Shown here: positions 40,110-55,187 of the stretch, piece by piece
How the letters are laid out: each line of letters opens with the position of its first letter
How positions within the stretch are numbered: position 1 is the stretch's first letter
From: Haloarcula laminariae
GTDB lineage: Archaea > Halobacteriota > Halobacteria > Halobacteriales > Haloarculaceae
Assembly (NCBI RefSeq): GCF_025457605.1
Contig: NZ_JAMZFY010000001.1
Location: 620,001-684,000 of the forward strand
Length of the DNA stretch: 64,000 nucleotides
Reading direction: 5' to 3'
Position numbers and translations under genes: made by a program
The notes under the pieces: model-generated
The model's input: the letters and a program-made list of their open reading frames with translations, nothing else
Told to the model about the DNA's origin: nothing
The model's database searches: none

Positions 40110-40997
40110 TCAGTCGGCGACGTAGGCGTCGACCGCCGCGCGGTACCCCTCCCTGAACGTCGGATAGACGAACTCGTACCCCAGATTTCGCAGCCTGTCG
40201 TTCGAGCAGCGCTTGCTCGTCTCGATGCGGCGCTTGGCCGTCTCGGACAGCTCCGGGTCAGCCAGGCGCTCCTCGGTCGTCTGTTTCGGCGGGAACTCGA
40301 CCCCGCAGGCCTCGGCCAGCCAGTCCGCAAAGCCCCACTTCTCGACCGGCTCGTCGTCGACCACGAGGACGACCTCGTCGCGGTGGTCCCCCTCCAGCAG
40401 GAACCGGACGGCACCTGCCGCGTCGTCCCGGTGGACCATGTTCAGATAGCCCGCGGTCACGGGGCCCTCCAGATAGCGCTCCAGCCGATAGCGCTCCGGC
40501 CCGTAGAGGCCGGCAAAGCGCGCGACGGTCCCGTGGCCGCCGTAGTCGGTCGGGCGCTCGCGGGCGACCCGCTCGGCCTCGGCCAGCACCTCGGTCTTCT
40601 CCGTCCGCGGGTCCAGCGGCGTCTCCTCGTCGACCCACGCGCCGTCGTGGTCGCCGTAGACGCCCGTACTGGACGTGTACACCAGCCGCTCGGGGGTCTC
40701 CGCCCGCGTCCAGAAGTGGTCGATAGCGGTCTCCAGCCCCTCGACGTACACCTCGCGGGCCGCGTCGGCGCCCCGACCCCCCGAACTCGCCGCGAAGACG
40801 ACCCAGTCGGCGTCGGGCACGGCCGACAGCGACTCGTCGTCGGTCACGTCGGCCTGGACTGCGTCGAACCCCGCGTCTTCGATAGCCCGGAGCCCGCTCT
40901 CGGACCGGCGGACGCCGACGACTTCGTGGTCGCCGGCGAGCTGTCGGCCAAGCTCCAGCCCGACGTAGCCACAGCCCAGGATGGCGACCCGACTCAT
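40110..40997 (-). CDS. NAD-dependent epimerase/dehydratase-like SDR protein
   Basis: The 295-residue extended or atypical SDR has VAILGCGYVGLELGRQLA (G-x-G-x-x-G NAD-binding), DADWVVFAASSGGRG, the Y-T-S-S-T-G-V-Y-G-D segment and GTVARFAGLYGPERY. The catalytic Y-x3-K pair is not clear in its usual place, as in YeeZ-like members that act on or only bind sugars. Its start overlaps the stop of the 142-residue gene upstream (ATGA), so the two are co-translated. Confidence 0.82.
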   Translation of the reverse strand: MSRVAILGCGYVGLELGRQLAGDHEVVGVRRSESGLRAIEDAGFDAVQADVTDDESLSAVPDADWVVFAASSGGRGADAAREVYVEGLETAIDHFWTRAETPERLVYTSSTGVYGDHDGAWVDEETPLDPRTEKTEVLAEAERVARERPTDYGGHGTVARFAGLYGPERYRLERYLEGPVTAGYLNMVHRDDAAGAVRFLLEGDHRDEVVLVVDDEPVEKWGFADWLAEACGVEFPPKQTTEERLADPELSETAKRRIETSKRCSNDRLRNLGYEFVYPTFREGYRAAVDAYVAD

Positions 40998-41422
40998 CGG
41001 CGCTGACTCTCGATGTAGCTGTGCAGGAGCGCGTACTCCTCCAGCGTCATCGGATACCGACCCTCTATCTTCTGTTGGATCTCCTTGGGTTCGAGCTGAC
41101 TGTCGATGCCCGAAGCCAGCGACTCGACGTCCATCACAGCCGTCGTCATCCCCATCAGGAGGATGTCCTGGGCCTCGGCCTGCAGGGCGTCGGCGTCGGG
41201 CCGGTCCGGGTCCGCCGCGAGGACAGCCATCGCGTCTTCGAGCGAGAGTGACGCGACATCGCCGTCGGCGGCGGCGTCGACGGCCTCACGGTCTAGGTCT
41301 GTCGCGTCGACGACGGCGCCGGTGCCGACCGATTCGACCGTCTCGGCGAGTACGGACCCGTAGGCCGCGAGCAGTTCGTCGGGCGACCGCTCGCCTGCAT
41401 CCGGAAACTCGGTTCTGAGCAT
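40994..41422 (-). CDS. Conserved haloarchaeal protein (DUF5791-like)
   Basis: The 142-residue acidic helical protein contains EDAMAVLAADPDRPDADALQ, LLMGMTTAVMDVESLASGI and the C-terminal KIEGRYPMTLEEYALLHSYI, which I associate with haloarchaeal DUF5791 without having verified it. No metal sites or membrane segments are visible. It is the first gene of a two-gene unit with the SDR epimerase. Function unknown. Confidence 0.65.
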   Translation of the reverse strand: MLRTEFPDAGERSPDELLAAYGSVLAETVESVGTGAVVDATDLDREAVDAAADGDVASLSLEDAMAVLAADPDRPDADALQAEAQDILLMGMTTAVMDVESLASGIDSQLEPKEIQQKIEGRYPMTLEEYALLHSYIESQRR

Positions 41423-41515: not shown

Positions 41516-44515
41516 CTACCCGGGGTCGGGCCACCCTGCCGACGTTTCCACGCTGTTGCCGTCCTTGTCGCCCACGCCGCGCGGTTTCGGCGGGACGACG
41601 ATGGCGACCCCGGTGTCGGCCCGGAAGGTGATGCGCCTGTTGTGTCCCAGAAGCTCGCCGCTCCCGTCCTCGTCGGCGTCGAGATGGACCGCACGCCGCT
41701 CCCGGACGTATCGAACTGTCTCGCCGGGCGTTCCCGGGGCGCCGTGGCTCGCCGTCACGCTGAAACGGGCGTACGTCCCCTCGACCGTCACCCACCAGAT
41801 GTTCACCGTCGCGTACCACGGGAGAAACGGCGGTGCGAGCGGTAAGCCGGCGGGTAGCGCCCGCGTTCCCAGCTTGCGCTTTGCGACCCGCTCGACCTCC
41901 GCCCCGGCGCGGTTCGCGAGTAGGCTCTGGACCCGGCTACGCGCGGTTTCGCGGACGGTGTTTGCGGTCCGGTTCACCAGGCCTTCCGGCGGTCGCGCCC
42001 CGGCGGTCGACAGCGTCGTGGTCGCGGTCCGCAGGAGCCGGACTCGGAGCCAGTCCTGTTCCACCGTGGAGAGCCCCCGACGGTCGGCGGCCACCTCTGC
42101 GATGCGGTGTGCCGCCGAGTCGTTCGCGATGGCCATCCCGCGCGCCGCCGTCGTTCCCCACTGGTCCATCGCGTCGTCGACGATTCGCTCGCTTTCCGAC
42201 GGCCCGGCGTCCGTCTCGGCGCGAACCCGTTCGGCGAACGCGGCGGTGACGACGCCGTTGGCTCGCCCGACTTCGGTTCGCAACTGCTGTCGGCGCTCGT
42301 CGAGGCTCGTGTTCGACCCTACCTCGGTCTCCCGGGCCGCCGCCAGCGTCTTGGCCGCCGCCCCGAGTCCGACCCGGTTTCGGCCGCCAGTGGCGCCGTT
42401 TAGCACCGTGGTCGCGGCGTTGCCGTAGGGGACGCTGAACACGTTGACGTTGCGGGCAACGAGCGGATGTTCGGTGCCGTCGACGGCCGGGAACTCGGAC
42501 TCGCCGACCGACGCCAGCGTCAGGTACTGCGGCTGGGCCTGGACCCGTGTCCGGACCGGACCGGCCGGTCCTGTCGGGGTCGCCCGCGCTCGCGGCACTC
42601 GCGTCTCGCGGGCGGTCAGCGCCCGCCTGAGCTCGGCCAGCGAACCGCCCGAGAGCGACCCGAGACGGTCGTCGATGCCCGACGCCACGGTCGAGTGGTT
42701 CTCGGCGTGTCCGCCCAGCCGCCGGTCGACGGCGTCGAGAAACGCCACTCGGGCCGCGACCCGGGCCCTGTCGGCGGCACTGTCGTACGTCCGTGGGGCG
42801 TCGACCAACTGCGAGCGCCGGTCCCGGAGCGTCCGCCTGAGTTGCCGGCTCGGGTTCGACTGGAACGTCCCTACTTCGCCCCGGTCGACCGAGACGGCGA
42901 TGTCCCTGACCCGCTCGCGGAGTCGCCGCAGGTCCCGGGCGATCCAGGTGTGTATCGAATCGGGCCGCGCCCCGGTGACAGCGACCGTATCCTGTTCGAA
43001 CTCCTCTAGGGCCACGTCCTTCGCGGCGCGGTCTCGTCCCCCGTCCAGTAGCTCGTCGGCGGCTTTCCCTTGCACGTCGGCGAGGTTCTCGCCCCCGAGG
43101 GGACTCCCACCTGACTCGTGGGCCCTCTCGATGCCCCGGACCGGCGCGAGGGAGCCGTTCCGATGCCTGCCGACGAGTGCGAGGCTGACGTGGACACGCT
43201 CGGTGCGCTGTGCCCTGGTGTGTCTGACGTTGTTCCCCTTCTTCCAGATTACTCTGCGCGTGTGAGTGAGCTCGACGGTCCGGCCCCACCGTTCGAGCGC
43301 GTGCCAGCGGCTCGGGACGCTCACGCCGCTGTCGACCGAGTCGACGATGCTGGCGTCCGAGCCTTCGATTTCCCTCACGAAACGCCAATCGGGACCCGGC
43401 GGATCGGGCCGGTCAGGTCGACCACCGTAGAGGCGTTCGCGCTCGGTGACGACGCTCGCTCTGACGGTGTAGGCGTCTCTGGCGGTCGCGTTGAGCGCGT
43501 CCGGCACCCCGACTTGCCGGTAGGCGGCGTCGGCGGTCCCGTTGACACCCACACGCAGCGGCTCATCGGGCTGTCGGGCGCCGGTAGTGATGTTCTGGCT
43601 CGCCGGCCGGTAGTTAACCTGGTCCAGTATCTCGCTTGCGAGCCGGCTGTTGCTGCCGGCGGCGATGTCGTTGACGCCGACGGCGGCCGTCGCCTCGGTC
43701 AGCGCCTGTCGGCCCTCGGGGTCGCTCCGACCGAAGACCGACCGCTGGACCCCGAGCAAGGCGCCGTTGGTCGCCAGGCTCACGTGTCTGTTCGCGATGA
43801 CGTTCTCTATCGGGGCGCCGCCGAACTGCGCGTAGCCACGCGCCCACGCGATGGGATAGATTCTCGCCGTCATCCGCTGGCTCACTCCCGGTTTGGTGAG
43901 CCCGTTCTGTACCCGCTGTTCGTAGGTCGTCATCTGGTCGTGGACGTGTAACACCGGCGTCGGGACGACGACGGTCCGGTCGACTACCCGGTGCGTGACG
44001 ACCTCGCCACCGCGTCGGGCGGTCAGCGTGATGTTCTCGACGGTGACGCGGAGCGCGGTGTCGTTGTCGCCGGCTCGCTCGACTGTCACACGGTCTATTG
44101 CCCGCTCGTACTCGGCCGTCGAATTCGCCGCCGGAAGCGACGCCGTCGCGTTGACCCCGTCGCTGTGGGCCGAGAGCCGCTCCAGGTTCGACCGGACGTG
44201 TCGATACACCCGAAGCCGCAGGCTGTCACGGAACGCGTGGTCGTCACGCAGCGCGCGGCCGGCGGGCGTGTCGGCCGGTTCGACGACGGGCGCCGCGGCG
44301 GCCCGCCGACTGGCCGTCGCGACGCCGTCACGGACGGCTGTCGTGCTGACTGCACTCACCTCGTTCAGTGTGCGCTCGACTGCCGTCCCGTTCGGGGCCG
44401 GTTCGGTCGACAGCGTCGGCGCGAGTGTGAGACTGCTCACCAGCAACAGGACGCCGACCACGGCGAAGGGTACCCGACCCCGCCTGTCCGCGGCCAGCGA
44501 CACCCGGCATCTCAT
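41516..44515 (-). CDS. Giant subunit of the pilus/secretion operon (DUF7286-like, 999 aa)
   Basis: The 999-residue protein starts MRCRVSLAADRRGRVPFAVV. A basic leader ends in R-R-G before a hydrophobic stretch (about 17-36), the shape of a class III (type IV pilin-like) signal or a simple membrane anchor. The large outer part has many N-x-S/T sites, helical Arg/Glu-rich stretches and Ser/Thr-Pro segments, and no catalytic motif. The chosen ATG overlaps the upstream stop (ATGA); reading further upstream in frame would cover the neighbouring gene in the wrong frame. I recall such proteins as DUF7286 in haloarchaeal pilus-like loci. A tip or scaffold role is inferred. Confidence 0.75.
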   Translation of the reverse strand: MRCRVSLAADRRGRVPFAVVGVLLLVSSLTLAPTLSTEPAPNGTAVERTLNEVSAVSTTAVRDGVATASRRAAAAPVVEPADTPAGRALRDDHAFRDSLRLRVYRHVRSNLERLSAHSDGVNATASLPAANSTAEYERAIDRVTVERAGDNDTALRVTVENITLTARRGGEVVTHRVVDRTVVVPTPVLHVHDQMTTYEQRVQNGLTKPGVSQRMTARIYPIAWARGYAQFGGAPIENVIANRHVSLATNGALLGVQRSVFGRSDPEGRQALTEATAAVGVNDIAAGSNSRLASEILDQVNYRPASQNITTGARQPDEPLRVGVNGTADAAYRQVGVPDALNATARDAYTVRASVVTERERLYGGRPDRPDPPGPDWRFVREIEGSDASIVDSVDSGVSVPSRWHALERWGRTVELTHTRRVIWKKGNNVRHTRAQRTERVHVSLALVGRHRNGSLAPVRGIERAHESGGSPLGGENLADVQGKAADELLDGGRDRAAKDVALEEFEQDTVAVTGARPDSIHTWIARDLRRLRERVRDIAVSVDRGEVGTFQSNPSRQLRRTLRDRRSQLVDAPRTYDSAADRARVAARVAFLDAVDRRLGGHAENHSTVASGIDDRLGSLSGGSLAELRRALTARETRVPRARATPTGPAGPVRTRVQAQPQYLTLASVGESEFPAVDGTEHPLVARNVNVFSVPYGNAATTVLNGATGGRNRVGLGAAAKTLAAARETEVGSNTSLDERRQQLRTEVGRANGVVTAAFAERVRAETDAGPSESERIVDDAMDQWGTTAARGMAIANDSAAHRIAEVAADRRGLSTVEQDWLRVRLLRTATTTLSTAGARPPEGLVNRTANTVRETARSRVQSLLANRAGAEVERVAKRKLGTRALPAGLPLAPPFLPWYATVNIWWVTVEGTYARFSVTASHGAPGTPGETVRYVRERRAVHLDADEDGSGELLGHNRRITFRADTGVAIVVPPKPRGVGDKDGNSVETSAGWPDPG

Positions 44516-45384
44516 GGTTTCCACGTCCTGACCGTGACGGTGACAGTCCCAGTGTCGACGGCTCGGGCGGCGGCCTCGGGCGAGTCGAACCGGCGCCGCA
44601 TGTCGGTCTCGAAACGGTCGGCCAGCGTCTCCGTTAGCTGCGCGTTCAGCTCGGTTGTCGGCGCCGATTCGACCGACAGCTGCCCGGCGCGGGTGAGCGC
44701 GCCCATCCGCCGGTAGCGATACGTCATCAGCCGGTCGGCGGGGTAGTCCCCGTCGAGGGCCAACTGGGCCTGCTGGGGCGGGAACAGCCCCGCGATAGCG
44801 GCGTCGGCGACCACTGCGGCGACTGCGCCGTATCCCCCTTGCGACGCTGCCCGCTCCGCACGCTCGCTGACGGCCGGCGACGGGCTCGGGACGGTCACCG
44901 TCGCCGCATCCACTTCGGCGGCTGGCGGCGGCCGCTCCCCGACCCGCATCGTGGCGTTGAGCGGCGCGCCGCGGTAGGGCTCCCAACGGGCCCGGACGGC
45001 GGTTCGCCGGCCCCGCTCGTGGAGACGGTTTCGCGTCGTCGCTGCCACGGCTTGCTCGAACCCGACGCCGGCCCGCGAGAGCCGGTGTTCCTCGAAGGCC
45101 ACGCGGCTCATCGCGGCCTCGGCCAGCAGCTCCGCGAGCGTGCCGTGGGCGGTGCGCTGGTGTGTCGCCGTCGCATTGGTCGTCCACGGCGGCGGATCGC
45201 CCGGCGGGGCCAGCGCGTACTCGATACTGGCCGTGCTCGTCGCGAGCAGCTCCGTTCGCTCGGCAGCGGGGTTCTCCGCCGTCGTCCCCTCGACCGCACC
45301 GCCGTTGACGACGACGGCGATGGCGGCGCCGACGAGCAGGAGGAAGGCGGTCACGTCGACGACGGTACTGGTCGCTCGGCTCAT
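44512..45384 (-). CDS. Single-span exported protein of the pilus operon (DUF7284/7285-like, 290 aa)
   Basis: After MSRATSTVVD there is a hydrophobic helix (about 11-27, VTAFLLLVGAAIAVVVNGG) and then about 260 residues of extracellular, Ala- and Arg-rich sequence with several N-x-T sites, ending VTVTVRTWKP. It is linked by four-base ATGA overlaps to both neighbours, so its amount should be matched to theirs. The N terminus resembles minor pilin or pseudopilin subunits in having a short positive leader and a single helix, but no clear G/A cleavage site is visible. Exact DUF number not verified. Confidence 0.7.
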   Translation of the reverse strand: MSRATSTVVDVTAFLLLVGAAIAVVVNGGAVEGTTAENPAAERTELLATSTASIEYALAPPGDPPPWTTNATATHQRTAHGTLAELLAEAAMSRVAFEEHRLSRAGVGFEQAVAATTRNRLHERGRRTAVRARWEPYRGAPLNATMRVGERPPPAAEVDAATVTVPSPSPAVSERAERAASQGGYGAVAAVVADAAIAGLFPPQQAQLALDGDYPADRLMTYRYRRMGALTRAGQLSVESAPTTELNAQLTETLADRFETDMRRRFDSPEAAARAVDTGTVTVTVRTWKP

Positions 45385-45770
45385 CGCCAGACCGCCACCC
45401 TGAGACGGCCCCGTCGAACCGTCGCCGGCCCGAGCGCGACGCTGACCGTGCGGTTGTCGGTGTCGGCGCTCGACGGGGGCGTCGGTCCGACGGCCCACCG
45501 CCGCTCGGCCCGCAACGTGACGTTGGCCTCGTATCCCGACGGGACAGCCGAAAGCGAGTCCGGGACCCGTGCCGGGTCGACGACGCCGCCGGTAGTTATC
45601 CGACGCTCGACCGCGTCGGCGGTGGGCGTGGCCAGGTCTCGATTGTCGCCGACTCCGGCCAGCGTGTCGTCCAGCGTTCCGGCGTACAGCGCGAGCCCCG
45701 TGGAGACGGCGAAGACAGCGACGAGCGCAGCCAGCGGCTCCGTCGCCCCCCTAGCCGACGAGCGTGACAT
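45381..45770 (-). CDS. Pseudopilin-like small protein of the pilus operon (129 aa)
   Basis: The N terminus MSRSSARGATEPLAALVAVF combines a short basic leader, a Gly at position 8, a Pro four residues later and a hydrophobic helix. This closely follows the class III signal of archaeal pilins (for example K/R-G|V-S-P-V-I-G-V), cleaved by the PibD-type prepilin peptidase. The remaining 95 residues are a small beta-rich domain with NVTLRAERR and VSVALGPATV. It overlaps the next gene by four bases and the previous one by 20. It is a candidate minor pilin; DUF7284 or DUF7285 type, not verified. Confidence 0.68.
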   Translation of the reverse strand: MSRSSARGATEPLAALVAVFAVSTGLALYAGTLDDTLAGVGDNRDLATPTADAVERRITTGGVVDPARVPDSLSAVPSGYEANVTLRAERRWAVGPTPPSSADTDNRTVSVALGPATVRRGRLRVAVWR

Positions 45771-46212
45771 CGACCCCTCCCCAGGCGACGTGTCTCGCGG
45801 TCAGACGGTCCGGTGCCGACCGCCACCGCTCACGGCCGGTCGCTGCGCGCTCGGTCGCCCGCTCGAACGCGTCTGGCGAGTCGAACACTGCCGACGGCTT
45901 CCGCCCGTCGAGTACCGTTTCGAGGTTGTCGCTCACAGCAGGGACGACCGGCCGCAACAGCGTCTCGTGGACGGTCCCCGACTCCGAGCGAAGCCCGAGT
46001 TGGCGCCCCGTCAGCGACCACTCGCTCGCGTGTAGCTCACGGGTGGCGACCGACCCCGGCGGACCAGTCGCGACTTCGTCTATCGTCGTCGCGGCGGCCC
46101 CACCGTCGGGCGGCGCCGACGTGGGTAGCTGCGTGACGACGCCGAGGACGGCCACGCTCACCGCCCCGACGGCCACCCAGACGTACGCCGTGTCGACGCT
46201 AGTTTCGAACAT
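45751..46212 (-). CDS. Single-span protein of the pilus operon (DUF7283-like, 153 aa)
   Basis: MFETSVDTAYVWVAVGAVSV starts a transmembrane helix (about 9-28) without a basic leader, followed by a 120-residue extracellular domain containing one G-R-x-L-G-L-R segment and DNLETVLDGRKPSAVFDSPD. It lies directly after the TadC-like gene (34 bases) and overlaps the next gene by 20 bases. In related haloarchaeal loci this position is occupied by a DUF7283 protein, as I recall. It could be an assembly-platform partner rather than a processed pilin. Confidence 0.68.
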   Translation of the reverse strand: MFETSVDTAYVWVAVGAVSVAVLGVVTQLPTSAPPDGGAAATTIDEVATGPPGSVATRELHASEWSLTGRQLGLRSESGTVHETLLRPVVPAVSDNLETVLDGRKPSAVFDSPDAFERATERAATGRERWRSAPDRLTARHVAWGGVDVTLVG

Positions 46213-46246
46213 GGGCCGGGGTGGTCCCGGCTTCGGATATAAAAGC

Positions 46247-47950
46247 TCACACGAGGAATCCGGTCGCCACGGCCGAGACACAGTAGACCGTCGTCGCCAG
46301 ACATAGCGTCAGTCCGGCCCGGTAGCCCGAAAGCGCGCGGTCGAGTCCGCGGTCGAGCCCGGTCGAGAGCGCCGTCAGCACGACCGCGAGCACGAGACAG
46401 TACCAGCCGATAACGGGTCCAAGCGACGCCGTCGACACCGACCTGATGGGGCCCCCGCTCCGCATGGCCGCCGACATAGCGACGGTCGCACCGCCGACGA
46501 GCGGGCCGAAGAACGCGGCGGTGTTCGATAGCGTCCCGGTGACCTGCGAGAGCTGCCGTCTGGTCTCCCGTTCCACCTCGGCCAGCTCGTCCAGGTGGTC
46601 GCCCATCGTTGCGATGGTCCCGCCGGCCGGCGGGCCGATGTCGGCGGCCGCACCGAGTAGGACCGCGGCGCGACGGAGCCGTGGACTCGGCAACGTCGAC
46701 AGCGTTCCGTGTTCACCCCGGAAGGCCGTCTCGATGTCGACGCCCAGCCGACGCTGGCGCTCGACGGTCTCTGTCAGCACGCCGGCGAGCGGTTCCGACG
46801 TGGCCTCGACCGCGGCGTCGAACGCCGCTTCGACGGACTCGCCGCGCTCGACCCGTCGCCCGATCGCCGAGAGTGCGGCCGGCAACCCCGCTTCGACGGC
46901 CTCGATGTGGGTCCGGACCTCGGCGACTGGCCGATAGTAGACGACGAGCGCAGCCCCGGTTCCCAGCCCCAGGGCCGCGACCGGCGGTGCCCACGCCGGG
47001 AGGAGGGCGCGCCCGGCAAGCCACGCGCCGAACGCGATGGCCGTCCCGATTCCGACCGCTTCGGGGGCCCCGGTCGAGATATCCGGGTGGTCCCGCGGCA
47101 CGGCCGCCGGCGGGAAGGCGATGGGGCGACCCGCGAGTAGCCAGGCGCTCGCGACGACGAGCCCGGCCGGGAGGACGATTCCGTAGGCCGCGGCGAGCAG
47201 CGGGAGCGAGACGGGTACGCCGGCCGCACCGACCGCGGGAAGCAGCGCGACCATCGCGAGGGGCAACAGCACGCCGAAGGCGTACAGCGCCGTCGCCGGC
47301 GCCCGCAGCTCGGCGGCGAACGACGCCATCTCGTCACGGGTCCCGTGGAGGATTCCGCGGCGGGCGCCGTCGAGAAGTTCCGTTCGCTCTTCGGCCGTCA
47401 CGACCGCTGCCCGCTCGATTCGCGTCAGCGACCGCTCCAGCGCGGGGAACTCGCCGCCCCACTCGCGGCCGAAGCTGTCCAGGCCGCTCCGCGGAGTCCG
47501 ACTCGCTCGCCGCCGGTGACTGTCGAGGCTCTCCCCGAGCAGTCCGTCGCTCGCGCTCGCGGCGAAGGCCGCCGCTCGCTCGGCGCTGGGCCACAGGTGC
47601 ATCCCCAGCACGAGCGTCGCCACGACCGACGGCGCGGCGCCAAGCGCACGGATTCGACGGCCCTGTGCCGCCAGGCCGACGCCGTAGCGACCGCCCAGCG
47701 CGACGCCGATAGCGGCGACGGCGCTGCCGGTCCCGACGACGACCGCGACCGGCCCCGAACCGACAGCGAGGGCGGTGATACCAGCCAGCCAGACGACGAC
47801 GGCCAGCGTGTAGCTCCCCGCGAGGACCGCCTCTGGGGGCACTGACAGCCCGAGCAGCCGACAGGCTCGCCCGTATCCCTCGGGCACTGTGACGAGTTGC
47901 CTGAGTCGCCCCCCGGCTCCAGTCCCGTCGTTCCCGTCTACCCCGCTCAT
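46247..47950 (-). CDS. Type II/IV secretion F-family platform protein (TadC/PilC-like)
   Basis: The 567-residue integral membrane protein has two GspF-like units, each a cytoplasmic helical domain (about 120-205 and 355-470) followed by paired transmembrane helices (near 215-265 and 485-550), plus two helices at the N terminus (about 42-85). FAAELRAPATALYAFGVLLPL and TGTLSNTAAFFGPLVGGA are the conserved helix ends. This is the inner-membrane platform that converts ATPase movement into subunit extraction or polymerisation. It overlaps the ATPase gene by ATGA, as archaeal pilus platform and ATPase genes usually do. Confidence 0.87.
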   Translation of the reverse strand: MSGVDGNDGTGAGGRLRQLVTVPEGYGRACRLLGLSVPPEAVLAGSYTLAVVVWLAGITALAVGSGPVAVVVGTGSAVAAIGVALGGRYGVGLAAQGRRIRALGAAPSVVATLVLGMHLWPSAERAAAFAASASDGLLGESLDSHRRRASRTPRSGLDSFGREWGGEFPALERSLTRIERAAVVTAEERTELLDGARRGILHGTRDEMASFAAELRAPATALYAFGVLLPLAMVALLPAVGAAGVPVSLPLLAAAYGIVLPAGLVVASAWLLAGRPIAFPPAAVPRDHPDISTGAPEAVGIGTAIAFGAWLAGRALLPAWAPPVAALGLGTGAALVVYYRPVAEVRTHIEAVEAGLPAALSAIGRRVERGESVEAAFDAAVEATSEPLAGVLTETVERQRRLGVDIETAFRGEHGTLSTLPSPRLRRAAVLLGAAADIGPPAGGTIATMGDHLDELAEVERETRRQLSQVTGTLSNTAAFFGPLVGGATVAMSAAMRSGGPIRSVSTASLGPVIGWYCLVLAVVLTALSTGLDRGLDRALSGYRAGLTLCLATTVYCVSAVATGFLV

Positions 47951-49779
47951 GAGTTGGCGCTCTCTATCCCCAGGTCCGGCTGCCCGAACGCCTCGGTTCT
48001 GTTGCGGATGGCCTCGCGGATGCCGGCATAGGACTCGCCGGCGTGTGACAGCGACTCGACGAGGTGGCTGGCCCCGCGGTCGATGCGTCCGGTCGCCGTC
48101 GCCCGCGCCCCGTCGCGCTCGAACAGCGGTTCGAAGCCGACGCCGTCCTCGTAGCTCCGGACCTCCTCGACTGCCGCGATGCCGCGCCCGCCGTCCGCCG
48201 TCGGCGGGTCGAGCGTCACGACGAGGTCCGTCGCGGCGAACGCGCTCTCGGGCACCCCGAGGTCGGAGACGAGTCGCTCCCGAACACTCTCGCCGCCGGT
48301 ACCGTGGATAGTGCCCAGCACCGCGCTGTCGCCCCCGCCGACGCGCATCGCCTCGTAGAGGACGCCGGCCTCCTGGCCCCGTACTTCTCCGACGACCAGG
48401 GCGCCGTCACCGAGGCGGAGTGCAGTCCGAAGTGCCGCCGTCGCGTCCACCGAGGGGCCGTCACCGCTTGCGGTCCGAAGCGGCTGTACGTCCCGACCGG
48501 CCGACTGCAGGGCCGAGACCGGCAGTTCGGCGGTGTCCTCGATGACGACCGTGCGGACGGTCGGTGGCAACTCCCAGAGCAGGGCCCCGAGCGTCGTCGT
48601 CTTCCCGGCGCCGCGCGGCCCGGCGACGAGACAGGCCGCCCCGCGCTCGACGGCCACGGAGAGGAGGCCGGCGACCCGCGGGGGGACACTCCCGTTCTCG
48701 ACGAGGTCACCGAGCCGAAAGGTCTCCTCGTCGTGGCCCCGGAACGCGAAGCCGATACCGTCGCTAACTGGCTCGGTGACACCGGCCACCCGAACCCGGC
48801 GGCCGGCGACCGTCGTCGTCGCGTCCAGCGTCGGACTCGCCCGGGAGAACGCCCGGCCGCTCGCTCGGCGGAAGGTGGAAGCCAGGCTGCGGGCGCCCCG
48901 CTCGGTGAGCCGGACGTTCGTCCGGAGCGTCTCGCCGTCGGCGCGAACCCGAAGCCGGGTCTCCTCGACCGGAGCCGTCGCGAAGACGTCGGAGACGCGC
49001 GGGTCGGCGAAGACGTCTTCGAGGATACCGAGTCCCTCGGTGTGCTTCCGGAGCACGCCGGCCACTCGGGTCGCCGTGTGGCCGTCGTCGACGACGGCCT
49101 GGGCGGCTGTCTCCGGCGTCAGCGTCTCCTCGCCGGTCGTCGCCAGCCGCGCGGCGGCGTCGGAAAGCGCCGCCGTCGTCGCCGCGTCGAACTCGTGCTC
49201 CTGCGGGCGGACGTGGTAGCTGTCCGGCCCGTCCGCCGGCGTCTCGTACCGTCGGACGGTCGCACCGGTTTCGACGGTCCGTCGGTCTCTGAGCGTCGCC
49301 GTCGGCGGCGGGCTGGCGGCGATGCGGGCGTCGCTGACCGCCGGACCGACGTACGGGTCGAGCACTCGCTCGGCTGTGACCCCCTCCGCGGCGACCGCGA
49401 ACCCGGTCCCGGCCGCCAGGTCCGCGACGTGGCCCGCCCGGCCGGTCGCCTCGGTCGCGGCGGCCAGTGGCTCCCGTCGAGCGCGCTCGGCCAGGCGCTC
49501 GTCGGTGGCCGCCACTCGCGTCGCGAACCGTCCGGCCGCGACCAGCAGCGCCGCGTCGGCGTCGAGATAGGCCCGCTCGACGCCGTTTGCTGCCGTGACG
49601 ACGCTGTCGATGTCCCCTCCGCCCAGCGCCGAGACGACGGTCGCCCGGCAGTCGGGGGACTCGCCCAGCCGCCCGTCACCGGGACAGTCGTCGGCGTCGA
49701 CGGTCAGTGTCCCCCGGTCGAACGCCGTCTCACAGCGGCAGTCCGGTTCGGGGTCGCTGTCGGCGAACCACTCACGCAT
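47947..49779 (-). CDS. Type II/IV secretion system ATPase (GspE/VirB11/PilB-like)
   Basis: The 610-residue secretion ATPase powers the pilus-like machine. The C-terminal motor has Walker A GPRGAGKTTTLGALL, the Asp box around VVIEDTAELP, Walker B-like GALVVGEVRGQEA and the His box LGTIHGTGGESVRERL. The N-terminal half begins with four cysteines (C14, C16, C32, C44 counted from the ATG) in D-C-R-C ... D-C-P ... D-C-R, a possible zinc site seen in one haloarchaeal subgroup. A GTG three codons upstream is an alternative start. The gene overlaps both neighbours. Confidence 0.9.
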   Translation of the reverse strand: MREWFADSDPEPDCRCETAFDRGTLTVDADDCPGDGRLGESPDCRATVVSALGGGDIDSVVTAANGVERAYLDADAALLVAAGRFATRVAATDERLAERARREPLAAATEATGRAGHVADLAAGTGFAVAAEGVTAERVLDPYVGPAVSDARIAASPPPTATLRDRRTVETGATVRRYETPADGPDSYHVRPQEHEFDAATTAALSDAAARLATTGEETLTPETAAQAVVDDGHTATRVAGVLRKHTEGLGILEDVFADPRVSDVFATAPVEETRLRVRADGETLRTNVRLTERGARSLASTFRRASGRAFSRASPTLDATTTVAGRRVRVAGVTEPVSDGIGFAFRGHDEETFRLGDLVENGSVPPRVAGLLSVAVERGAACLVAGPRGAGKTTTLGALLWELPPTVRTVVIEDTAELPVSALQSAGRDVQPLRTASGDGPSVDATAALRTALRLGDGALVVGEVRGQEAGVLYEAMRVGGGDSAVLGTIHGTGGESVRERLVSDLGVPESAFAATDLVVTLDPPTADGGRGIAAVEEVRSYEDGVGFEPLFERDGARATATGRIDRGASHLVESLSHAGESYAGIREAIRNRTEAFGQPDLGIESANS

Positions 49780-50236
49780 CGTACTCACCGCCCAGCCGAG
49801 CTACCTGCAAGACCGTCTCTCCGGCACGCGACCGCAGTTCGAACACGAGCCGGTGGGTACCCGGTTCGCGGATGGTCAGTGCCCCGCCGCCGGCCGCGCG
49901 GACGGGCACACCGGCGAGGCGAGCGTGGCTCGTCGCCCCGTCGCCGACTCGCCACGAGGCCACTGCGACCCCGTCGCGGCTGCTAAACCGGAGCCGCGTG
50001 ACGGCGGCGCTGGTCAGTGACCGCTCGGGCAGCCGCAGTTCGGACACGTGCCGGGCGCCAGGGCCCGTCGTCGGGTCGTCCGTCTCGACCATCGCCCCGA
50101 GTTCGTCCGCCAGCGCCCCGAGCTGGCGGTCCATGGCGCTGTCGGCCCTGTCGGCGCCGGCGTCGGCTATCGCCGGCGTGACGGCGGCAAGCAGTGCAGT
50201 GGTCAGGGCCACCGCCAGGACGACGCGGAGTATCAC
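49772..50236 (-). CDS. Exported protein at the head of the pilus operon (DUF7311-like, 154 aa)
   Basis: Starting from GTG (M-I-L-R-V-V-L), the protein has a signal-peptide-like helix (about 4-24, with A-I-A-D as a possible cleavage point) and a beta-rich extracellular domain (RLRFSSRDGVAVASWRVGDG, HRLVFELRSRAGETVLQVAR). The GTG overlaps the stop of the coiled-coil gene (GTGA) and the 3' end overlaps the ATPase gene, so the unit is tightly coupled. I recall haloarchaeal DUF7311 at this place in the locus, unverified. It is probably secreted or anchored and supports the machine. Confidence 0.68.
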   Translation of the reverse strand: MILRVVLAVALTTALLAAVTPAIADAGADRADSAMDRQLGALADELGAMVETDDPTTGPGARHVSELRLPERSLTSAAVTRLRFSSRDGVAVASWRVGDGATSHARLAGVPVRAAGGGALTIREPGTHRLVFELRSRAGETVLQVARLGGEYDA

Positions 50237-50751
50237 AGCAGGGACCGTATCTGTTCGAGCACGCCGCCGTCTCCCCCGCCGGTTCCCGGCGTCCCCGACT
50301 CTCCGCTCTTTTCGCCGCCGTCCCGCGTTTCGAGTCCGTCCAGGCGCCGTTCCCCGGTTTTGACGCCGCCGCTGTGATGGTCCTCTTGTGCGTGCTCGCT
50401 CGGGTCCCGGGTAGTACTCGACCCGACGGGTTCGCCGTCCCCCGGCCGCCACTCCTCGGTGGTCGCGTCGAGGCGGCGCTCAAGCCGTTCGGTGGCCGCA
50501 AGCGCCGCGTCGGCTCGCCCCTCGACCCGCTCGTTGACCGAACGGACGTTGCCGACGTACCCCCTGAGCGCCTGTGTGGCGGCGTCGAGTTCATCCGCGC
50601 GGTCGTTCAGTTCGTCGACCCGGTCCTCGAGGGCGTCGACGCGTTCGGTCAGCTCCGCGAGGTCGTCCACGGCCGGGAATCCGTGGTCGCCGTCGGTGAC
50701 GGCCCGTTCGACCGTGCTGACCCGCTCTTCGAGTGTCTCCACGTCGGTCAT
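50233..50751 (-). CDS. Coiled-coil protein, first gene of the pilus operon (DUF7310-like, 172 aa)
   Basis: Residues 1-75 form a strong heptad coiled coil (METLEERVSTVERAV-type start, then LAELTERVDALEDRVDELND). A charged, Gly/Ser-rich disordered region follows, and the short C-terminal helix GVLEQIRSLL may be a docking peptide. There is no signal peptide, so it is cytoplasmic. Being first in an eight-gene operon next to the ATPase suggests a regulator or chaperone of that ATPase; this is inferred. I recall the family as DUF7310, unverified. Confidence 0.7.
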   Translation of the reverse strand: MTDVETLEERVSTVERAVTDGDHGFPAVDDLAELTERVDALEDRVDELNDRADELDAATQALRGYVGNVRSVNERVEGRADAALAATERLERRLDATTEEWRPGDGEPVGSSTTRDPSEHAQEDHHSGGVKTGERRLDGLETRDGGEKSGESGTPGTGGGDGGVLEQIRSLL

Positions 50752-50826
50752 ATCCGGGGCTGGTCCCGCTACTGTACTTCAACCCTTGGCCGAAGGTTCT
50801 TGTGAGATGCCGGGCCCATCGCCTCT

Positions 50827-51153
50827 GTGACCGGAAGCGAACGGGCGAAGGCGGCGCTGGCAGCGCTGGCCGACGGTGAGACGCGCAGCGCGGCCCCAGC
50901 AGTTGGAGACGCCGAAACGGACGACGAACACCGAGCACCGGCCGACTACCGGTCGGTCATCGAGCGGGCGACGGCAGCCACCGAGGACGTCGACGCGGCC
51001 GCCGCGTTCGTCGAATCAGTGGGGCTGGAGCGGCTGGAACGGGCAGTCGAACGGGCCGAACGCGGGGTCAGCGGGCTGGCCGACGACGGCCGCGAGGCGC
51101 TCGCGGCCTTCGAGCGCTTTCGGGTCGCGGCCGCGGGACCGGTAGCGGAGTGA
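50827..51153 (+). CDS. Small acidic helical protein upstream of mre11
   Basis: The product is 108 residues from a GTG start (T-G-S-E-R-A-K-A-A-L-A-A-L). It is Ala/Glu/Arg-rich, probably helical, with VIERATAATEDVDAAAAFVE and LERLERAVERAERGVSGLAD forming amphipathic helices and no Cys or catalytic motif. It lies 62 bases before mre11 on the same strand, and a weak TATA-like element sits between them, so it may or may not be in the same operon. No recognised family. A DNA-repair accessory role is only a guess from position. Confidence 0.55.
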   Translation: MTGSERAKAALAALADGETRSAAPAVGDAETDDEHRAPADYRSVIERATAATEDVDAAAAFVESVGLERLERAVERAERGVSGLADDGREALAAFERFRVAAAGPVAE

Positions 51154-51214
51154 CTCGCCACTTTCACCGCGGTGGCGACACGGCTTTAGGAGCGGCTGGC
51201 ATACGCCCGCACAG

Positions 51215-52495
51215 ATGACACGGGTGATACACACCGGCGATACCCACATCGGGTACCAGCAGTACCACGTGCCCGAGCGCCGGCAGGACTTCCTCGCGGC
51301 GTTTCGGGCCGTCGTCCGGGACGCCATCGACGACGACGTGGCCGCGGTGGTTCACGCCGGGGACCTGTTTCACGACCGTCGGCCGACGCTGTCGGACATC
51401 ATGGGAACGCTCGATGTCCTGGAAGAGCTCGCTGCGGCGGACATACCGTTTCTGGCCGTCGTGGGCAACCACGAGGCCAAACGCGACGCCCAGTGGCTCG
51501 ACCTCTACGCCTCGCTTGGGCTGGCGACCCGCCTTGGCGACGAGCCGACCGTCGTGGGCGATACGGCCTTCTACGGGCTCGACTTCGTTCCCCGGTCGAA
51601 GCGCGACGACCTGGACTACGACTTCGCCCCCCACGAGGCCGACCACGCGGCGCTCGTGACCCACGGCCTCTTCCAGCCCTTCGATTACGGCGACTGGGAG
51701 GCGAGCGAGGTGCTGGGCGAGTCCTCCGTCGACTTCGACGCCCTGCTGCTGGGGGACAACCACAAGCCCGGCAAGCAGGCGGTCGAAGACGCGTGGGTCA
51801 CCTACTGCGGGTCCACCGAACGGGCAAGCGCCAGCGAGCGCGAGGACCGCGGCTACAACATCGTCACCTTCGACGACGACGTACAGATCACGCGCCGGGG
51901 CCTCGACACCCGCGAGTTCGTCTTCGTCGACGTGGAGCTGGGCCCCGAGGAGGGCCTCGACCGCGTCCGCAGTCAGGTCGGTCAGTACGACCTGGACGAC
52001 GCCGTCGTCATCGTCGGTATCGACGGCGACGGCGAGCCCGTCACCCCGGCCAGCATCGAGGAGTTCGCCCTCGACCGGGGAGCGCTCGTCGCTCGGGTCA
52101 CCGACCACCGGGAGCTCGCGGCCGACGAGCGGGAGACGAGCGTGAGTTTCGCCGACCCCGACGACGCCGTCGCTGAGCGGGTTCGGGAACTCGGGCTGAG
52201 CGGGGCCGCCCGCGACATCGACGAGACGGTGCGGGCCTCGAAAGTCGCCGACGCGAACGTCGCCGAGACGGTTGAAGACCGGGTCAGAGCGCTGGTCGAG
52301 GACGACCCCGACGCGCTGGACGGTCCCGGGTCGGACGACGGCGACGCTGCGATGGACGACGAAACGACCGCGGCCGAAGGGTCCACCGCCGAGACCGACG
52401 GCGGCGACACCAGCGACGCATCGTCAGACACCGATTCGACCGCCGAGGGCGCCGGGGCCGACGGCGAGGACCAGTCCCTGGAGGAGTTCCTGTGA
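51215..52495 (+). CDS. mre11: DNA double-strand break repair nuclease Mre11
   Basis: The 426-residue manganese-dependent exo/endonuclease works with Rad50 on DNA ends. Phosphoesterase motifs are all present: GDTHIG (D9, H11), HAGDLFH (D50), GNHE (84-87), VTHGLF and LGDNHKPG. The capping domain follows, and the last ~75 residues are an acidic, low-complexity tail (ETDGGDTSDASSDTDS) ending QSLEEFL, typical of haloarchaeal forms. A TTTAGG element about 29 bases upstream may be its promoter. The rad50 start is ten bases downstream. Confidence 0.95.
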   Translation: MTRVIHTGDTHIGYQQYHVPERRQDFLAAFRAVVRDAIDDDVAAVVHAGDLFHDRRPTLSDIMGTLDVLEELAAADIPFLAVVGNHEAKRDAQWLDLYASLGLATRLGDEPTVVGDTAFYGLDFVPRSKRDDLDYDFAPHEADHAALVTHGLFQPFDYGDWEASEVLGESSVDFDALLLGDNHKPGKQAVEDAWVTYCGSTERASASEREDRGYNIVTFDDDVQITRRGLDTREFVFVDVELGPEEGLDRVRSQVGQYDLDDAVVIVGIDGDGEPVTPASIEEFALDRGALVARVTDHRELAADERETSVSFADPDDAVAERVRELGLSGAARDIDETVRASKVADANVAETVEDRVRALVEDDPDALDGPGSDDGDAAMDDETTAAEGSTAETDGGDTSDASSDTDSTAEGAGADGEDQSLEEFL

Positions 52496-52505
52496 GGTGT
52501 CTCTG

Positions 52506-55187
52506 ATGCGGTTCCAGCGAATCTCGATGGAGTCGTTCAAGTGTTACGACGACGCCGACCTCCCCCTCGACCCGGGCGTCACCGTCATCCACGGGCTCAA
52601 CGGCAGCGGGAAGTCCTCGCTGCTCGAAGCCTGTTTCTTCGCACTCTACGGCTCGACGGCCATCGACGGGACCCTGGAAGACGTGGTCACCATCGGCGCC
52701 GACGACTGTACGGTCGAGCTGTGGTTCGCCCACGCGGGCGGGGAGTACCACCTGACGAGGCGGGTGCGAAACACCGGGGAGCGCGCGACGACCGCCAAGT
52801 GCGTCCTCGAGACGCCGGAGGGCACCTTCGAGGGGGCGCGGGCGGTCCGACGCCGGGTCACCGAGCTGCTGCGGATGGACAGCGAGGCGTTCCTCAACTG
52901 CGCGTACGTCCGACAGGGCGAGGTGAACAAGCTCATCAACGCCTCGGCCAGCGAGCGCCAGGACATGCTGGACGACCTCCTGCAACTGGGCAAGCTAGAG
53001 GAGTACCGCGAGCGAGCGAGCGACGCCCGCGTGGGGGTCAAGCGCGTGCGCGAGGACAAGCGAAGCCGCCTCGACCAGCTCGACGACCAGATTACGGCGA
53101 AAGAGGAGAAAGACCTCCACGAGCGGCTGAACGCGCTGGAGACGACGCTCTCCGAGACGACTGCCGAAATCGAGCGCATCGAGGACCAGCGCGAGACCGC
53201 CGCCGAGACGCTGGAGCGGGCCCAGTCGACACTCGAGGAGTACGAGGAGCGCCGCGAGCAGCTCGCGGAGCTGACCGACGATATCGAGACGCTGGCGGAC
53301 CAGATTACGGAGACAGAACGGGAGCGCGAGGAGCTGAAAGAACGCATCTCGGCGCTGAAGAGCGACCGGGAAGAACTGGCGACGGAACTGGAAGAGACCG
53401 TCGCCGAGACCGACCTCGACGACGCCGACCCGGGCCGGGTCGACGCCCGCCTCGGCGACCTGGAGGACCGCTCTGAGGAGCTCCGCTCGCGCATCGAGAG
53501 CCAGAAGGTCGAGGCACAGAAACACAGCAGCGAGGCCGACTCGCTCCGGTCGGAGGCCGAGGACCTCGACGCCCGCGCGGAAGCGAAGCGGGAGGAAGCG
53601 GCCGAACTCGAATCGGAGCTGGAAACCGCCAGGGAGACGGTCGCCGAGCGCCGCGAGAAGCTCGCCGAGATAGACGAGCAGGTCGAGGCGCTCGAAGCGC
53701 GGTTCGCGGGCGCCGATACCGACCGTGAGGCCGCTCCGGACCACCGCGACTCGGTCGCCGAGGACCTCGATACGGCCCGCCAGCGGGTGACGGAACTGGA
53801 GACCAAACTGGCAAGCGAGCGCGAGTCGCTTTCAGAGGCGGAGGCGCTGCTGGAAGCGGGCAAATGTCCCGAGTGCGGCCAGGACGTGGCCGAGTCGCCC
53901 CACGTCGAATCCATCGAGGACGACCGCGAACACGTCACAGAGCTGGAGAGCGACCTGGACGCGGCCCGCGAGCGAGTCGAGAGCCTGGAGAGCGACCTGG
54001 AGCGGGCCGAGTCGCTGGCCGAGGCCGCCGACCGGCTCGACTCGCTGGAATCGAACCGCGCGAACGTCGTCCAGCTCATCGAGGAGAAGGAGTCCGGTCT
54101 GGCGGCCGACGAGGCCCGAATCGAGACGCTGCGGGAGGACGCCGATGCGCTCGACGCGGAGGCCGAGACGAAACGCGAAGCCGCGAGCGAGGCCGAGGAG
54201 CTGGCGGCCCAGGCCCGCTCGACCATCGGCGAGTGCAACCAGGAGCACCAGCGGGTCAAGCAGTCCATCCAGCGGCTCGAACGGGTCGCGGAGCTGCTCG
54301 ACGCTATCGACGACCGCGACAGCGACATCGAGCAGCTACGCGAGAAGCGGGCCCAGCAGGCCGAGATGAACGACCAGCGCCGCGAGCGGCTGGCGGAGAA
54401 ACGCGACCGAAAGGGGGACCTCGCCGAGCAGGTCGACGAGGACCGCATCGAGGCGGCACGCGACGACAAATCACGGGCCGCCGATTACATCGAGCAGGCC
54501 GACGCGAAGCTCGACGAACTCCGCGCCGAGCGCGACGAGACGCAGTCGGCCATCGGCGGGGTGAGGACCGAAATAGAGACCTTAGAGGAGCTGCGGACAC
54601 AGCGCGACCAGCTCGCCGAGACCGTCTCGAAACTCGACGCGCTGTACGAGGAGAGCGAACAGCTCCAGGAGATGTACGGGAGCCTGCGCGCCGAGCTCCG
54701 CCAGCGCAACGTCGAGACGCTCGAACGGATGTTGAACGAGACGTTCTCGCTGGTGTACCAGAACGACTCCTACTCCCACATCGAACTCGACGGGGAGTAC
54801 CAGCTGACGGTGTACCAGAAGGACGGCGACCCGTTGGAGCCCGACCAGCTCTCGGGCGGTGAACGCGCACTGTTCAATCTCAGCCTCCGCTGTGCCATCT
54901 ACCGGCTGCTGGCGGAGGGCATCGAGGGGGCGGCCCCGATGCCGCCGCTCATCCTCGACGAGCCGACGGTGTTCCTCGATTCGGGCCACGTCACGCAGCT
55001 GCTCGACCTCATCGCCTACATGCGCGACGAGGTGGGCGTCGCCCAGATTCTCGTCGTCAGCCACGACGAGGAGCTCGTCGGCGCGGCCGACGACCTCGTC
55101 CGGGTTGAGAAGTCGGCGACCTCGAACCGCTCGCACGTCTCGCGGGTCGAGCGCATCGAGGAGACGGTCGCCGAACTCGCGGATTGA
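52506..55187 (+). CDS. rad50: DNA double-strand break repair ATPase Rad50
   Basis: The 893-residue SMC-like ATPase begins MRFQRISMESFKCYDDADLP with Walker A HGLNGSGKSSLLEA (about 34-47) and Q-loop VRQGEV. Two long antiparallel coiled-coil arms flank a zinc hook C454-P-E-C457 at the centre, and the C-terminal half closes with signature LSGGERALFNLSL, Walker B PLILDEPTVFLD and the H-loop VVSHDEE. The hook dimerises Rad50 across two DNA ends. The gene is complete and follows mre11 in an operon. The long in-frame reading upstream of the ATG overlaps mre11 and is not real. Confidence 0.96.
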   Translation: MRFQRISMESFKCYDDADLPLDPGVTVIHGLNGSGKSSLLEACFFALYGSTAIDGTLEDVVTIGADDCTVELWFAHAGGEYHLTRRVRNTGERATTAKCVLETPEGTFEGARAVRRRVTELLRMDSEAFLNCAYVRQGEVNKLINASASERQDMLDDLLQLGKLEEYRERASDARVGVKRVREDKRSRLDQLDDQITAKEEKDLHERLNALETTLSETTAEIERIEDQRETAAETLERAQSTLEEYEERREQLAELTDDIETLADQITETEREREELKERISALKSDREELATELEETVAETDLDDADPGRVDARLGDLEDRSEELRSRIESQKVEAQKHSSEADSLRSEAEDLDARAEAKREEAAELESELETARETVAERREKLAEIDEQVEALEARFAGADTDREAAPDHRDSVAEDLDTARQRVTELETKLASERESLSEAEALLEAGKCPECGQDVAESPHVESIEDDREHVTELESDLDAARERVESLESDLERAESLAEAADRLDSLESNRANVVQLIEEKESGLAADEARIETLREDADALDAEAETKREAASEAEELAAQARSTIGECNQEHQRVKQSIQRLERVAELLDAIDDRDSDIEQLREKRAQQAEMNDQRRERLAEKRDRKGDLAEQVDEDRIEAARDDKSRAADYIEQADAKLDELRAERDETQSAIGGVRTEIETLEELRTQRDQLAETVSKLDALYEESEQLQEMYGSLRAELRQRNVETLERMLNETFSLVYQNDSYSHIELDGEYQLTVYQKDGDPLEPDQLSGGERALFNLSLRCAIYRLLAEGIEGAAPMPPLILDEPTVFLDSGHVTQLLDLIAYMRDEVGVAQILVVSHDEELVGAADDLVRVEKSATSNRSHVSRVERIEETVAELAD

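Follow-up and report, generated by a model that had tools for sequence, protein, structure and literature searches.

The window analysed here, a stretch of 64,000 nucleotides from Haloarcula laminariae, carries an eight-gene operon that we are inclined to read as encoding an assembly machine like that of type IV pili, of the '4F' kind of euryarchaea, with a giant protein of the DUF7286 family as its anchored tip. The gene content and conserved order of this operon, its two promoter-headed modules, the obligatory pairing of its ATPase with the giant and its prepilin-like sites are all directly seen. The putative machine occurs in roughly three quarters of the Halobacteria genomes sampled, and its subunits are annotated as DUFs only. 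Its division into an engine and a subunit module, its prepilin-like termini and the obligatory pairing of ATPase and giant provide testable roles for six DUF families. A literature search for the DUF names returned nothing, and neither experimental work nor filament or phenotype data on the locus were found.

Gene layout and transcriptional modules

The operon comprises eight minus-strand ORFs running from 50751 to 41516, the coordinates of which were confirmed on the window sequence. They fall into an engine module (DUF7310, DUF7311, ATPase and TadC) and a subunit module (DUF7283, DUF7285, DUF7284 and DUF7286):

g1, 50233..50751, minus strand: DUF7310 coiled-coil protein, 172 aa, cytoplasmic, no TM-like segment, engine module (PF23991, 3.8e-31)
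g2, 49772..50236, minus strand: DUF7311, 154 aa, GTG start, engine module (PF23993, 9.1e-35)
g3, 47947..49779, minus strand: PilB/TadA-type secretion ATPase, 610 aa, engine module (PF00437, 3.1e-19)
g4, 46247..47950, minus strand: TadC/PilC-like membrane platform, 567 aa, engine module (PF00482, 7.4e-4, below cut-off)
g5, 45751..46212, minus strand: DUF7283, single-span protein, 153 aa, subunit module (PF23954, 5.4e-45)
g6, 45381..45770, minus strand: DUF7285, pilin-like, 129 aa, subunit module (PF23956, 1.3e-35)
g7, 44512..45384, minus strand: DUF7284, pilin-like, 290 aa, subunit module (PF23955, 5.7e-87)
g8, 41516..44515, minus strand: DUF7286 anchored giant, 999 aa, subunit module (PF23957, 1076 bits)

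A first-pass annotation had described an eight-gene translationally coupled operon, and this description holds, with the same order kept in 80 further haloarchaeal loci. The comparison of operon content across haloarchaea that it had proposed finds a nearly fixed gene order in these 80 named loci, which are the closest matches to the giant and a non-random sample. As Pfam families match all eight genes (the T2SSF match of TadC lying under its cut-off, at 19.9 against 25.2 bits) and the order is conserved in the 80 loci, the layout is not due to chance. The subunits had also been called unfamiliar, which is apt in that they have no assigned function, but the six other than the ATPase and the platform already bear Pfam names (DUF7310, DUF7311, DUF7283, DUF7285, DUF7284 and DUF7286).

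Neighbouring genes overlap at six of the seven junctions, by GTGA at g1/g2 in the window sequence, by the 8 nt of ATGCGTGA at g2/g3, by ATGA at g3/g4, g6/g7 and g7/g8, and by 20 nt at g5/g6; the remaining junction, between the TadC gene g4 and g5, is a 34-nt gap with TTTATAT inside it. This gap is a conserved predicted promoter and the operon therefore consists of two transcriptional modules, a single promoterless operon being ruled out by the conserved TATA box within the gap. The two predicted promoters are:

46222..46243, minus strand: subunit-module promoter, TTTATAT and CGGGACCA, 30 nt 5' of the g5 ATG, in about 80 loci
50761..50782, minus strand: engine-module promoter, TTGAAGTA and CGGGACCA, 30 nt 5' of the g1 ATG, with a conserved upstream profile

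Upstream of g5 the TATA box occupies -31 to -25 and CGGGACCA -17 to -10, both conserved in about 80 loci, and the same layout of TATA and CGGGACCA is found upstream of g1; the distance of about 30 nt between TATA box and start codon suggests that the transcripts are leaderless. In several haloarchaea and methanogens the engine genes lie at a locus separate from that of the giant and its small partners. Two further candidates were rejected: CGGGACCA is not an operator specific to this system, as it also occurs 5' of unrelated genes in the genome, and a conserved promoter hairpin was discarded as inverted repeats are only slightly in excess there, to an extent similar to that in the upstream regions of other genes.

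In about 72-74 of the 80 loci the operon is followed by genes for DUF5791 and an NAD-epimerase (window 40110-41422); these were considered as parts nine and ten of the system and ruled out, as both outlive the loss of the operon. On the other side and on the opposite strand are a small ORF and Mre11-like and Rad50-like genes (window 50827-55187), a divergent adjacency found mainly in Haloarcula loci, with Mre11 at the far side in several Halorubrum loci.

The engine

The g3 ATPase has an N-terminal CxC..C..C motif, present in nearly all of its haloarchaeal homologs, with the methanogen homologs also rich in Cys, and a Walker A motif (GPRGAGKT) that is intact in all homologs. The solved structures closest to it are 2oap (1.3e-26), CpaF and FlaI, all T4P or archaellum ATPases, and beyond Pfam the NCBIfam models add just a general TadA/FlaI similarity. 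The genome of the window has seven T2SSE matches, g3 among them, and in a tree built without the reference sequences of the Makarova et al. 2016 tree the ATPases that accompany the giant cluster together at 100/100, haloarchaeal and methanogen members alike, to the exclusion of the remaining T4P ATPases of these genomes. In-frame TGA codons were flagged in ATPase homologs, and in the single case traced by coordinates, that of G022, the codon is the natural stop. The platform g4 has several TM-like segments and its homologs adjoin the ATPase in nearly all loci, methanogens included, whilst g2 has a TM-like segment at its N-terminus (residues 1-26) followed by a small exported domain.

Pilin-like subunits

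Prepilin-type sites were counted among homologs by a strict and a loose criterion, the strict one being a FlaFind-like prepilin pattern. The loose criterion, G/A at -1 and a charge at -2, follows the archaeal prepilin rule of G/A/S at -1, a charge at -2 and then an H-domain, and the PibD of Haloferax is of low stringency at +1 and +3 (PMC4371748). DUF7285 has R-G/A then Q/A-x-E, an H-domain and a small head (RGQxEP... among homologs), with a loose site in 140/144 homologs and a strict one in 128/144. DUF7284 has R-A/G then V/I/T-S (RAxST... among homologs), with loose and strict sites in 116/146 and 86/146 homologs respectively, and an Asp at about +6 (D10) that is invariant across the haloarchaeal and methanogen set. 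Both therefore fit pilin-like subunits with predicted processing sites. No prepilin-type site was found in DUF7283, in which 0/140 homologs have the strict motif, and homologs of DUF7311 mostly have none.

The predicted model of DUF7284 (pLDDT 90.7) has a head with an alpha-helical insert ahead of the last strand, and once this insert is removed DUF7284 matches the DUF7285 profile (probability 67-79%, E 2e-5 to 5e-5); as the model served as the guide for this cut, the match is support for, and not proof of, a relationship between the two. The comparison of DUF7283 with the DUF7285 profile gave no match, and a Foldseek search of the PDB with the DUF7284 model gave nothing at E<1e-3, neither a pilin nor a GspK fold.

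The operon had been thought to hold no major pilin, archaellin or prepilin peptidase. For the archaellin and the peptidase this stands, the single Peptidase_A24 (prepilin peptidase) match in the genome being outside the operon, whereas pilin-like subunits are present in DUF7285 and DUF7284 with their prepilin-type sites. Ten Pilin_N pilins score above cut-off in the genome and all lie outside the operon; none of them adjoins it, and their upstream regions are without the promoter element that both modules have.

The giant

The N-terminus of g8 is prepilin-like as well (DRRGRVPFA in the window, RARVPFA... among homologs), with a loose site in 143/152 homologs and, because of the Arg at +1, a strict one in 0/152. 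None of the 143 has an acidic residue in the H-domain from +1 to +20, Pro16 is invariant, and the N-terminal anchor is kept as far as the Methanosarcina relatives. The predicted model (pLDDT 85.9, pTM 0.75) shows a large folded head, and 13 N-glycosylation sequons were counted. In classical pilins alpha-1 is continuous, whereas the models of both DUF7284 and DUF7286 have a low-confidence linker that separates the N-terminal helix from the head. Foldseek comparisons of the DUF7286 model with the PDB found nothing at E<1e-3, and no pilin or GspK fold; viral Foldseek matches were disregarded as well, none being below E 0.001.

Display of the giant on a short pseudopilus and its secretion had been offered as equal options. 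They are not equal, as the N-terminus of DUF7286 is a conserved prepilin-like anchor, and this favours display; the most likely role of DUF7286 is that of a pilin-like tip, anchored in the membrane and pushed out by the machine to contact surfaces or other cells, as against a product that is secreted freely. GspK, the large minor pseudopilin at the tip in type II secretion, has no acidic H-domain residue and carries a helical insert, and by analogy with it an H-domain without an acidic residue would suit DUF7286 to a tip position.

Distribution, pairing and loss

The distribution was surveyed in 292 Halobacteria genomes and in controls, as raw counts that ignore kinship. DUF7286 is present in 224 of the 292, and in the controls Haloferax volcanii and Methanosarcina acetivorans; outside Halobacteria, Methanosarcina-like families and a few others have it. 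DUF7284 was found in 218 of the Halobacteria genomes, 217 of them shared with DUF7286, and likewise in Haloferax volcanii. The operon ATPase, detected by its own profile at E<1e-60, is present in 215, all 215 of which carry DUF7286, and 68 genomes have neither. This leaves nine genomes with DUF7286 and no operon ATPase, of which around four hold probable C-terminal remnants (checked in G012, G125 and G235, with G067 scoring similarly), and two, G045 and G251, have a full-length or near full-length giant. The pairing of ATPase and giant extends to methanogens, where engine and giant are at different loci.

In two genomes the eight genes have been lost together as a unit. A single frame in G012 (L116:9839-10777) joins the 5' end of g1 to the 3' end of g8, in G125 (L117) only scraps of g1, g2 and g8 remain, and behind the operon scar both genomes retain intact genes for DUF5791 and the epimerase. 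The co-occurrence and the loss as a unit support the view that the ATPase, the platform, the three single-span proteins and the anchored giant are one functional unit. A different alteration is seen in G220 (L118, G220:C19:43107-62107), where the giant is split with approximately 7.5 kb between its parts, a possible insertion.

Cassettes in methanogens

In G488 (L127:12300-19536) a sarcinarray gene (TIGR04209), sarcinarray proteins being archaeosortase-type, lies after a full giant, and farther along come two copies of the 3' end of the giant only, each with its own sarcinarray gene. In G452, which belongs to another family (L132:1-4384, L133), cassettes recur every 1.41-1.43 kb as direct repeats that are near-identical up to ...MEPDYL and divergent over the last ~120 residues; here too a sarcinarray gene comes after each copy. 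At least two C-terminal matches were found in 8 of 43 giant-bearing Methanosarcinaceae, and up to seven, some of these being short fragments or contig ends. The cassette copies have no N-terminal anchor, no recombinase was noticed, and a DUF7286 profile search found no such cassettes in the genome of the window.

The simplest reading is that the cassettes are silent donors that would vary the exposed end of the giant, and a variable C-terminal domain is suggestive of surface recognition. More tentatively, and as a possibility that we hold to be rather doubtful, DUF7286 may be a pilus-tip recognition protein with a C-terminal domain that is switched by recombination, with the silent sarcinarray-paired 3' copies as donors and the haloarchaeal operon as the cassette-free form. 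If confirmed, the cassette arrays would constitute a new system of pilus-tip variation in archaea.

Proposed mechanism and alternatives

We infer that the subunits are processed, that a filament is assembled with the giant at its tip and that the role of the machine is adhesive. In such a scheme the ATPase g3, with the coiled-coil protein g1 and the membrane partner g2, would drive the TadC-like platform g4, and DUF7285, DUF7284 and DUF7286 would be inserted by Sec, trimmed by the single PibD of the genome and lifted from the membrane as a short pilus or pseudopilus. Alternatively, these subunits may form the tip and priming complex of a longer pilus, the bulk pilin of which would be DUF7285 or a PilA-family pilin from elsewhere. 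The giant would take the tip position that GspK occupies in the pseudopili of type II secretion, exposing ~950 residues, with a conserved beta-rich domain at the end, for adhesion or recognition.

A less likely explanation is an ordinary adhesion pilus, for which the engine would polymerise PilA-family pilins encoded elsewhere, the four proteins of the subunit module being minor pilins and the giant having no special role at the tip. The ten Pilin_N pilins would provide the material, pilins in trans are usable by PilB/C, and subclade 4F has been tied to the stand-alone PilA-family pilin arCOG02981 by Makarova, Koonin and Albers (2016), in the passages of PMC4858521 that describe it; however, 0/10 of the pilins are tied to this system by adjacency or a common promoter element. 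It would seem improbable that the machine is instead akin to type II secretion, with a short pseudopilus of DUF7285 and DUF7284 pushing exported proteins, or a released giant, through the S-layer. The small subunits are pseudopilin-like, the operon is without a certain major pilin and the helical insert of DUF7284 recalls the design of GspK, but the giant has a conserved N-terminal anchor with its invariant Pro16 and not a cleavable Sec-type signal, there is no conserved gene for a secreted protein inside the operon, and archaea, to our knowledge, are without an outer membrane that a product would have to cross. We find it hardly probable that the giant belongs to a static, bindosome-like envelope complex with no filament, the ATPase doing no more than inserting or orienting it in the S-layer; the 13 sequons and large folded head would suit such a complex, yet a dedicated platform and two small pilin-like subunits are conserved with the giant across two archaeal groups.

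Comparison with known systems

Several features of the type IV pilus superfamily are found here, namely an ATPase with Walker A, a TadC platform, predicted class III signals, which DUF7285 and DUF7284 fit and DUF7286 satisfies by the loose rule only, and a genomic prepilin peptidase, whilst no archaellin or arl accessory gene is among the eight operon families. On sequence features, namely the Cys-rich N-terminus of the ATPase, the coiled-coil partner and the methanogen relatives, the engine fits subclade 4F, which in the passages of PMC4858521 that describe it is found in halobacteria and methanogens and has a Cys-rich ATPase N-terminus, TadC and the cytoplasmic coiled-coil protein arCOG07564. 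DUF7310 is likened to arCOG07564 by description, and the operon has its own pilin set; the DUF7286 giant is unnamed in those passages (PMC4858521), where an 'S-layer like protein' is possibly, though not certainly, its equivalent. Haloferax volcanii has six pilBC pairs (PMC7921747). The adhesion pili of PilB1-C1 (4C) and PilB3-C3 (clade 2) in Haloferax (PMC6491452) likewise combine a PilB/PilC engine with PibD-type substrates, but their ATPases are of other clades, and in the present operon a dedicated pilin-like set and a giant are encoded alongside the engine.

The giant differs from GspK in its length of 999 aa, and no homology of DUF7286 or DUF7284 to GspK was found by sequence or Foldseek at E<1e-3, with weak ribosomal-protein matches only. 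PilV of R64 is a shufflon tip adhesin with exchangeable C-terminal ends, and the methanogen relatives of the giant may work alike, although their repeats are direct and not inverted and the genome of the window has no cassettes. Beyond the 4F description, the modular split, the promoters, the strict pairing of ATPase and giant and the methanogen cassettes are new here.
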